37,555 nt of DNA from Sphingobacteriales bacterium (lineage in GTDB: Bacteria > Bacteroidota > Bacteroidia > Sphingobacteriales > Sphingobacteriaceae), in assembly GCA_004292865.1 (NCBI GenBank), contig RDXP01000119.1, positions 1-37,555 on the forward strand. The letters are read 5' to 3'. A model generated the notes under the pieces. It was not told where the DNA came from, made no database searches, and saw only the letters and a program-made list of their open reading frames with translations. Both the position numbers and the translations under genes were made by a program. Shown here one piece after another: positions 16,493 through 20,828 of this stretch; positions within the stretch are counted from its first letter, which is position 1, and every line of letters begins with the position of its first letter.

Positions 16493-17449
16493 ATGAAAAC
16501 ATCATTCGATTTTGAAAAACCTATTACCGAGCTGCAATTACAGGTTGAAAAAGTAAAGCAAATAGCCGATAAAACCAAAGTAAATATGAATGCTACGTTA
16601 AAAGAACTGGATAAAAAAATTGAAGATGCCAAAGAAATGGTGTATCATAATTTAACAGGCTGGCAACAGGTGCAAATTTCACGCCATCCCGAAAGGCCAT
16701 ATACCTTAGAGTATATTGAAAAAATAGCCGATGATTTTATTGAGATGCATGGCGACCGTACCGTAAAAGACGATAAAGCAATTGTAGGTGGCTTTGGTAG
16801 TATAAACGGGCAAACGGTAATGTTTATAGGCCACCAAAAGGGTATAAATACTAAAATGCGCCAATACCGTAATTTTGGTATGGCCAATCCCGAGGGATAC
16901 CGTAAAGCATTGCGCTTGATGAAAATAGCCGAAAAATTTAACAAACCTGTGGTTACTTTTATTGATACCCCGGGTGCCTACCCAGGCTTAGAAGCCGAAG
17001 AACGTGGCCAAGGCGAAGCTATAGCCCGTAACCTACTGGAAATGTCGGTTTTAAAAGTTCCTATTATATGTATTGTAATAGGCGAAGGCGCATCGGGTGG
17101 CGCACTAGGCATAGGTATAGGCGATAAGGTGTATATGCTTGAGCATACTTGGTATTCGGTAATTTCGCCCGAGTCGTGTTCATCAATTTTATGGCGCAGC
17201 TGGGATTTTAAAGAACGGGCAGCCGAGTGTTTAAAGCTTACCGCCGATGATATGTACGGCAATAAACTAATTGATGGTATTATTGAGGAGCCACTGGGCG
17301 GTGCACACCAAAACCCCGATGCTATGGCTGCTACCATCAAAGAAAAATTAATTACCGATTTGGCATTACTAAAAAAGAAAAAAATAGACGTTTTAATTAA
17401 CGAAAGGATAGAAAAATTTTGTGCTATGGGCCAGGTGGTGGAGAATTAA
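16493..17449 (+). CDS. accA: Acetyl-CoA carboxylase carboxyltransferase subunit alpha
   Basis: AccA, with AccD, transfers the carboxyl group from biotin to acetyl-CoA, giving malonyl-CoA for fatty-acid synthesis. The 318 residues match the family. The N-terminal coiled region ([20 protein letters not shown]) precedes [20 protein letters not shown]. The crotonase-like core shows [38 protein letters not shown] and the oxyanion-hole region [20 protein letters not shown]. It also has [14 protein letters not shown] and a C-terminal helix. accD is not adjacent. The gene converges on fic; no clear terminator is visible in the 146 bp between them. Confidence 0.97.
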
Positions 17450-17582
17450 AAAATAGATTTTTTAATCTTGATTATAATAATTGCATTTTTGGTTATTTTA
17501 AAATTAGGCAAAAAATTATTATTTTAATTTTGTTCGAATTGTTTAGACATTTATGTTTGTTAATTCTTGTTAGTTTTAAAAT

Positions 17583-17598
17583 AATTGGCAAGTATTTA
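17583..17598 (+). repeat. Half-site of the fic-flanking repeat, overlapping the fic stop codon
   Basis: AATTGGCAAGTATTTA here equals the reverse complement of 16 of the 17 bases in the left arm of the palindrome upstream of fic (18920-18936). It differs by one base from the right arm (18944-18959) in direct orientation. The fic stop codon (TTA on the plus strand, 17596-17598) is its last three bases. Confidence 0.8.
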
Positions 17599-18888
17599 TT
17601 TCTTTATTAGATTTTCAAATTGCGCTGAACGTATAAAATTACTTTTTACGTTATTTACAGGTATCATTTGCATATAGCCTAATGCAACAAGTTTAGTTAA
17701 ATCTGTACGAGCAGTAAAATTGGCTATTAAAAACCTATTGGCTATTTCTTTTACAGAAAAAACTACATCAGGTTCATCATATAATATTTTTAAAATTTGG
17801 GCTTGCCTTTCGTTTACATTGGCAAGTTTTAAAAATTGTGCAACTTGAACATTTTCTTGTTGTTTTTCTTTTATATATTTTTTTAATGCTTCAAAAGCTT
17901 TATGCATTACCTCTATATGATAGGTAACAAAATAAGTTAAATCCAATTCGTCTATTTCGGTGTATAAATATGCTTTTTCATATTTGTTTTTACTGCCTTG
18001 TATAATTTTTGATATAGATAAATATTCGGTAAGCCAGTAACCTTTTTTTAATAAATACCAATAAAATAACGCCCGGGCTGTACGCCCATTACCATCTGTA
18101 AAAGGATGTATCCAACCTATCATAAAATGAATGATGATACCTTTTAAAATAGGATGTATAAAATCATTTTCGTTATCTGTATTAAAAAACAAACAAAGTT
18201 CGGATATAAGATTTTGGATTTCATTATGTTTAGGTGGGGTATGTACTACCTCACTTGTACTGTGGTTTACAACGTAAACATCATCCGAATTTCTAAAAGC
18301 TCTTTCTTCAGTTGTGCTACCTAATGTTCTATTACACATTAAGTGATGTATTTGCAATAAATTTTCTGGGGTTAGGTCATCATTTTTGTGTGCTACAATA
18401 TGATTAATAGTGTAATAATTATTTACAATCATTTGATCGCTTTTATTTTTGGGCTTTATTTCTTTGCGAAGCATTTCTTTTGCCTTTTTACGGGTAGTTG
18501 CTGCGCCCTCCATAATGCTGCTACTAATTGCCTCTTCCATTATAGCACTTACCAAATATCTTGCCTTATCTTGTTCGGGTATTACACTTTTTGCACCCAT
18601 ATATCCACCAATGTGCATATCAAACTGATGAAGTGATTTTTGAACATAATCGGTATTGTAATACTTAAAAATATGTTGATTTAGAGGTAATAATTTATAA
18701 TTCAAGTGCCTTATGAGTTTTGTGTTTTCCCACAATTCTTCAGCACTAAGTCCATCTATTTTTTTATATTTAATTTTATCCCAATACAAATACTCGGTAT
18801 TTAGTTCTTTTATTTTATATGCTAGTTTAGGATGATTCATCCTTTGTAATGCATCAGTTAAATTGTATGGCGGTGCTGTTTCTATCAT
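17596..18888 (-). CDS. Fic-domain protein (AMPylator) with C-terminal winged-helix region
   Basis: This 430-residue Fic protein has the catalytic motif HPFTDGNGRTAR (H261 onward), intact for AMP transfer to a target hydroxyl. Upstream is the auto-inhibitory motif [S/T]xxxE[G/N] as SSIMEG with E127, placing it in class II (inhibitory helix N-terminal in the same chain). The N-terminal part (1-120) resembles the DUF4172/Fic_N-type region. The last ~70 residues (NERQAQILKILYDEPDVVFS, then a TARTDLTKLVALGYMQ segment) look like a winged helix that could bind DNA. No antitoxin gene is adjacent. Copies of one palindromic motif flank it. The low GC content suggests later acquisition. Confidence 0.92.
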   Translation of the reverse strand: MIETAPPYNLTDALQRMNHPKLAYKIKELNTEYLYWDKIKYKKIDGLSAEELWENTKLIRHLNYKLLPLNQHIFKYYNTDYVQKSLHQFDMHIGGYMGAKSVIPEQDKARYLVSAIMEEAISSSIMEGAATTRKKAKEMLRKEIKPKNKSDQMIVNNYYTINHIVAHKNDDLTPENLLQIHHLMCNRTLGSTTEERAFRNSDDVYVVNHSTSEVVHTPPKHNEIQNLISELCLFFNTDNENDFIHPILKGIIIHFMIGWIHPFTDGNGRTARALFYWYLLKKGYWLTEYLSISKIIQGSKNKYEKAYLYTEIDELDLTYFVTYHIEVMHKAFEALKKYIKEKQQENVQVAQFLKLANVNERQAQILKILYDEPDVVFSVKEIANRFLIANFTARTDLTKLVALGYMQMIPVNNVKSNFIRSAQFENLIKK

Positions 18889-18904
18889 GATTATAACAAA
18901 TGAT

Positions 18905-18934
18905 TAAATGTAAAGGTAAGTAAATACTTGCCAA
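18905..18934 (-). promoter_or_regulatory. Candidate promoter of fic
   Basis: On the minus strand, TTG (18934-18932), a 19-nt spacer and TACATTTA (18912-18905) fit the Bacteroidota promoter with one mismatch in the -7 box. The -33 element lies inside the long palindrome 18920-18960. Confidence 0.5.
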
Positions 18935-18960
18935 TTATGCTAGAATTAGCAAGTATTTAC
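18920..18960. promoter_or_regulatory. 17-bp palindrome over the fic promoter, candidate operator
   Basis: GTAAATACTTGCCAATT (18920-18936) and AATTAGCAAGTATTTAC (18944-18960) are inverted arms with one mismatch around a 7-bp centre. It overlaps the predicted -33 box and spacer of the fic promoter. It could be a repressor site for the winged-helix end of Fic itself. The remaining intergenic stretch down to 19142 shows nothing else. Confidence 0.65.

Positions 18961-19142: not shown

Positions 19143-20828
<1,686 letters not shown>

Follow-up and report, generated by a model that had tools for sequence, protein, structure and literature searches.

Two related palindromes, one over the promoter and one over the stop codon, frame the fic gene of a Sphingobacteriales bacterium. 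The gene lies in a 37,555-nucleotide (nt) contig (RDXP01000119.1, assembly GCA_004292865.1), which we call the window, and it encodes a Fic protein ending in a winged helix. The palindrome pair is kept and changes jointly across the family of fic homologues, so fic most likely controls itself from both ends. On the sequence evidence we consider it probable that fic is negatively autoregulated through its own C-terminal winged helix, and that a second, non-promoter operator lies at its stop codon. Searches of the literature for a 3′ operator of fic, for fic in integrons and for palindrome-flanked genes returned nothing on point, and we found no report there of a conserved second site over a stop codon.

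Two palindromes at one gene

The palindrome pair is private to fic in its genome. An earlier, sequence-only reading had placed three copies of one motif around the gene, and all three lie where it put them, one on the plus strand at the gene end and a minus- and plus-strand pair over the promoter (Table 1). The exact match that it described across the gene is real, with the length corrected from 16 to 18 nt (ATAATTGGCAAGTATTTA). Exact copies of the 16-mer number three in the 2.23-Mb genome (93.5% complete), all at fic. We then searched this genome for the whole dyad (ACTTGCYAATT-N7-AATTRGCAAGT, up to three mismatches), with the reversed pattern as control. The dyad occurs in two places only, the fic promoter (no mismatches) and the fic stop codon (three mismatches), and the control gave no matches genome-wide. 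The scattered copies unrelated to fic that would have spoken against a fic-specific element were not seen, and no further copy was found in this genome.

The copy at the gene end is half of a second palindrome. Because the dyad search returns both the promoter and the stop-codon sites, this copy is best described as the intact arm of a partly decayed palindrome. The sequence-only reading was right that the stop codon lies inside it; its partner arm, which that reading missed, is present in decayed form. Read from 17598 down to 17560, the site is TAAATACTTGCCAATT-ATTTTAA-AACTAACAAGAATTAA, with 11 of 16 positions paired and a 7-nt spacer as at the 5′ site. On the fic strand, the stop codon TAA (17596–17598) supplies the first three bases of this palindrome.

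Chance similarity in AT-rich DNA has next to no probability as the source of the repeat. The region is indeed AT-rich, and the window holds eight loose matches where 4.4 are expected. However, when the region was resampled 2,000 times under a Markov model, an 18-nt match arose only twice, the dyads are unique genome-wide, and dozens of homologues conserve the sites. Together these results refute a chance repeat and bear out the sequence-only reading, which had judged it unlikely.

A promoter palindrome across Bacteroidota

The promoter palindrome is a near-constant feature of Bacteroidota fic genes. Scanning species-representative genomes, we obtained 74 loci, 66 of them from Bacteroidota. Under a strict rule, 61 of these 66 carry a 5′ dyad with a 7-nt spacer (consensus TAAAAATTGCGAGATT-N7-AATCTCGCAATTTTTA), and two loci, L082 and L094, have one under a looser rule. 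The Bacteroidota promoter box TAnnTTTG (at least 5 of 6 positions) accompanies 60 of the 61 dyads and stands 20–22 nt from the dyad centre in 53, compared with 22% at random positions. Because the box stands at a fixed distance from the dyad, the dyad covers the −33 region, whose place we take from general knowledge of Bacteroidota promoters. The sequence-only reading had set the promoter copy over the −33 box, and the consistent spacing among homologues agrees with it. In the 5′ operators of L083, L069 and L057, GCGAGA half-sites recur at steps of about 10 base pairs (bp) (GCGAGATATTGCGAGATATTGCGAG in L083), an arrangement that might let more than two protomers bind on one face.

A matching palindrome at the stop codon

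A palindrome with the same core overlaps the fic stop codon in 28 of 71 scorable loci. The motif thus recurs next to fic homologues, where the sequence-only reading had suggested looking for it, at both ends of the gene. We assigned 3′ sites by a score rule, with four loci (L042, L057, L093 and L094) assigned by hand. Among the 26 aligned 3′ dyads, 17 are centred 19 nt from the stop codon's first base. The promoter box is no commoner at these sites than by chance (6 of 26) and has no fixed place. Most early-branching lineages carry the 3′ site, and one large clade is mostly without it. Mapping gain and loss on the protein tree requires at least five changes, with some branches weakly supported.

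Both ends of a locus share one specificity. Matches between 5′ and 3′ cores average 19.96 of 22 positions within loci and 16.6 between loci, and none of 20,000 permutations reached this difference; after dereplication the values are 19.5 and 15.2, again with 0 of 20,000. Unusual cores are mirrored at both ends: CTTGCCAATT in L039/window and in L041, GRGGAAATT in L104, the TTCTTCTTGA type in L042, a GGAAGATT-like core in L078, and CCGAGATT/CAGAGATT in L087. Several loci with unusual operators also have unusual residues in the recognition helix, which reads I/V-A-N in the window, L040 and L041 and I/V-S-N in most other loci; the helices of L078, L087 and L104 also depart from the usual.

We found no sign of a wider regulon. 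In 22 other genomes searched with the common core at up to one mismatch, there are two dyads where fic has a 3′ site and otherwise one, at fic; the exception, G170, has three. Two-mismatch matches occur at about the control rate. Since these genomes hold one or two dyads and hardly any others, the sites serve no regulon. Additional operator copies within loci number five, compared with four in controls, and those of L059, L062 and L098 look real. In L059 and L062 the third palindrome lies about 173 nt upstream of fic, upstream of the promoter, and has the core of the 3′ palindrome; the approximately 14 nt in front of it resemble the end of the gene.

The 3′ palindrome is improbable as an operator through which Fic controls the next gene. 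In its favour, nine of 15 dereplicated 3′-site loci have a same-strand gene no more than 200 nt away (tex, type I restriction genes and a Capnocytophaga operon). Yet the excess over loci lacking the site (12 of 30) is not significant (p 0.23), the sites lack a promoter box beyond chance, and the next gene is on the opposite strand in the window, L073, L081, L093 and L104.

A role as transcription terminator, or as a hairpin that stabilises the fic mRNA, is slightly more improbable still. Several 3′ copies do fold as RNA at −18 to −26 kcal/mol (z about −7 to −11), whereas the window's copy forms no hairpin (z 0.09) even though its protein-type half-site is intact. A terminator scan does not report the window's copy, and a terminator need not track the operator half-site, yet the 3′ palindrome does. 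Scanning the window for sigma-70 promoters and terminators gave nothing specific, and the sigma-70 consensus is not applicable to Bacteroidota.

Proposed autoregulation by Fic

We propose that the winged-helix end of the encoded Fic recognises the palindrome whose half-site is this motif. What the computation shows directly is the two sites with their geometry, their conservation, their uniqueness and the specificity that they share; from these we infer that Fic binds them, that it represses fic, and what the 3′ site does. A Fic dimer on the promoter palindrome would cover the −33 region and repress fic. The stop-codon palindrome, which has the same specificity but is not a promoter site, would most likely serve as an auxiliary operator, keeping Fic close to the gene; the two sites may also be joined by a DNA loop of about 1.36 kb. 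A potentially toxic adenosine monophosphate (AMP)-transferase would thereby be held tightly off. Operator function accounts for the promoter geometry, the co-change and the uniqueness.

Looping is the weakest step of this scheme, and we hold it to be possible but somewhat doubtful. Of the roles left for the 3′ site, we rank looping or local retention of Fic highest; its chief competitor is a role as the end of a mobile unit, and both can hold. The lac and gal systems have auxiliary operators and loops, with a second binding site away from the promoter. The window differs from them in that its second site has a set place, over the stop codon.

Several observations weigh against control from both ends. 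The 3′ site is absent from most members of a clade of about 38 homologues and is therefore not essential for autoregulation. The second arm of the window's own 3′ site has decayed. Helical phasing of the two sites is not clear (distances of 1346–1384 bp, Rayleigh R 0.32). The switch to A-N in the recognition helix happened once, in one clade, so the association of helix and operator is consistent evidence and not statistical proof. Finally, the closest precedent, CccR of Yersinia pseudotuberculosis, has a 26-bp spacer in its operator, compared with 7 here.

CccR nonetheless provides a working example of self-repression by a Fic protein. This Fic protein, which ends in a C-terminal helix-turn-helix (HTH), is reported to bind an inverted repeat within its promoter and to repress its own expression, and a dimer is needed (PMC9755527). 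A C-terminal DNA-binding domain and an inverted repeat over the gene's own promoter are present here too. CccR differs in its low sequence identity and in being secreted by type VI secretion, and the excerpted text of its report mentions no 3′ site (PMC9755527). With this precedent, the promoter geometry and the joint change of half-sites at both ends, the autoregulatory operator suggested by the sequence-only reading is strongly supported; the loop that it added is possible. Self-repression of the CccR kind appears common to a whole Bacteroidota family, with the operator sequence switching at both gene ends.

Other Fic proteins share the architecture of the window's protein. SoFic is an anti-phage defence Fic, and the partial text of its report describes no operators that we found (PMC12249575). 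Like SoFic (PDB 3eqx, 3zcn), the window's protein joins a Fic fold to a C-terminal winged helix and matches the PADLOC SoFic profile (4.5e-44), but identity in the structural match is about 20% and the NCBIfam SoFic cut-off (NF046030) is far from reached (64.2 compared with 550 bits). By eye, we recognised no AS1-like small gene beside the window's fic. CbFic2 of Coxiella burnetii likewise combines Fic and HTH and binds DNA with nanomolar affinity, measured on random DNA; it has no known operator (PMC10628234).

The Fic protein and its neighbours

By its sequence motifs, the encoded protein is a predicted class II Fic AMP-transferase. It carries both motifs of the class, the catalytic HPFTDGNGR (type HPFx(D/E)GN(G/K)R) and the N-terminal inhibitory S123xxxE127G128 (type (S/T)xxxE(G/N)), and their key residues are invariant in 44 sequences. 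Pfam matches are Fic (PF02661, 1.2e-18) and HTH_DeoR (1.6e-4). An AlphaFold2 model (mean predicted local distance difference test, pLDDT, 86.6) has a visible winged helix, and its closest solved structures are SoFic 3zcn and 3eqx. Another structure match, 7xux (380 amino acids), may be CccR, judging by its length and name.

Table 1. Coordinates in the window of the palindromes, the fic gene and its neighbours
Feature	Position	Strand	Details
5′ operator dyad	18921–18959		arms 18921–18936 (−) and 18944–18959 (+), 7-nt spacer 18937–18943; palindrome 18920–18960; same geometry at 61/66 homologues
3′ operator dyad	17560–17598		intact arm 17583–17598 (+), spacer 17576–17582, decayed arm 17560–17575
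Promoter −7 box, Bacteroidota type	18911–18918	−	TACCTTTA, 5/6 to TAnnTTTG, 22 nt from dyad centre
fic (P0001)	17596–18888	−	430 amino acids; predicted class II Fic AMP-transferase with C-terminal winged helix, by open reading frame, Pfam, PADLOC and AlphaFold2 model
Winged-helix domain	17629–17811	−	residues 360–420; predicted recognition helix, residues 390–402
Catalytic Fic motif	18073–18108	−	HPFTDGNGRTAR, residues 261–272; by sequence and invariant alignment columns
Class II inhibitory motif	18505–18522	−	SSIMEG (S123xxxE127G128); by sequence and invariant alignment columns
accA-like gene	16493–17449	+	convergent neighbour on the left; in G006 next to the ABC-F gene, with no fic between
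ABC-F-type ATPase gene	19143–20795	−	right neighbour

Insertion sites and palindrome ends

Empty sites lacking both fic and the palindrome exist, as the sequence-only reading had thought worth seeking, at the window locus, in Flavobacterium and in Chryseobacterium. They bear on its other suggestion, a mobile cassette, and we judge it unlikely that the palindromes serve mainly as termini of a mobile unit of one gene, moved by host recombination or by a transposase acting in trans, with promoter control a secondary use of the left end. The boundary calls below rest on two resolved insertion sites, from assemblies that are partly draft and at species level.

At the window locus the insertion is not sharply bounded. 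In the close relative G006, a spacer of about 86 bp separates the accA and ABC-F genes and contains neither fic nor a palindrome. The flanks of the window's fic, about 130 and 180 nt, could not be clearly aligned to that spacer, and no sharp boundary was found there or for the fic of G006.

Inserts elsewhere end at or near the palindromes. In Chryseobacterium locus L088, which gives a clean comparison with 97–98% relatives, homology ends about 10 nt before the 5′ palindrome and resumes 0–4 nt past the 3′ one, and the insertion replaces about 46 bp of target. The upstream msrB there now ends in the TAA of the inserted 5′ palindrome arm. In Flavobacterium, 11 fic loci stand directly before tex; they include L041, so that two operator types, its own and that of the GCGAGATT group, occupy the same spot. 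Among the closest Flavobacterium pairs, left homology mostly ends 1–11 nt before the palindrome, and the 3′ palindrome lies 14–26 nt from the tex start codon. In L068, L071 and L085 the distances are 1–4 nt on the left and 14–15 nt on the right. The left boundary is less sharp in L066 (44 nt) and L070 (33 nt), that of L041 lies at 21 nt, and L072 has no useful empty match. The last few aligned bases are unsure because the flanks are A-rich.

These empty sites and insert ends support the cassette suggestion in part; the boundary at the window is not sharp, and there is no sign of recombinase action on the palindromes. The palindrome–fic–palindrome unit encodes fic only, with no recombinase, and no target duplication was seen. 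The palindrome sequence tracks the promoter box as well as the recognition helix of Fic, which is expected of an operator, and a compact gene with its operators would look alike after any insertion. In a combined form, likewise unlikely, a one-gene mobile unit would end in binding sites for its own DNA-binding Fic toxin, which would repress its gene from the left end and mark, protect or bridge the two ends. If it were true, the same two sites would be operators and ends of moving DNA. Palindromes near insert ends offer a route to studying the movement of single defence or toxin genes that lack a recombinase of their own.

In marine Flavobacteriaceae lacking the 3′ palindrome, an attC-like repeat starts about 5 nt past the stop codon, a point in favour of mobility. 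In L086, L091, L092 and most clearly L089, fic resembles an integron gene cassette, and in L089 attC-like repeats stand on both sides of it.

Single palindromes also occur apart from fic. Two Capnocytophaga genomes, G302 and G304 (L276:545 and L277:545), carry a lone GCGAGATT palindrome with a fic-like promoter before a gene for a 135-amino-acid membrane-protein-like product; in C. felis (L099) and G318, fic occupies this site. The search for a close fic in G304 covered 1.86 of its approximately 2.7 Mb and found none. In L084 and L087, fic with both palindromes adjoins genes that, by eye, resemble type I restriction subunits.
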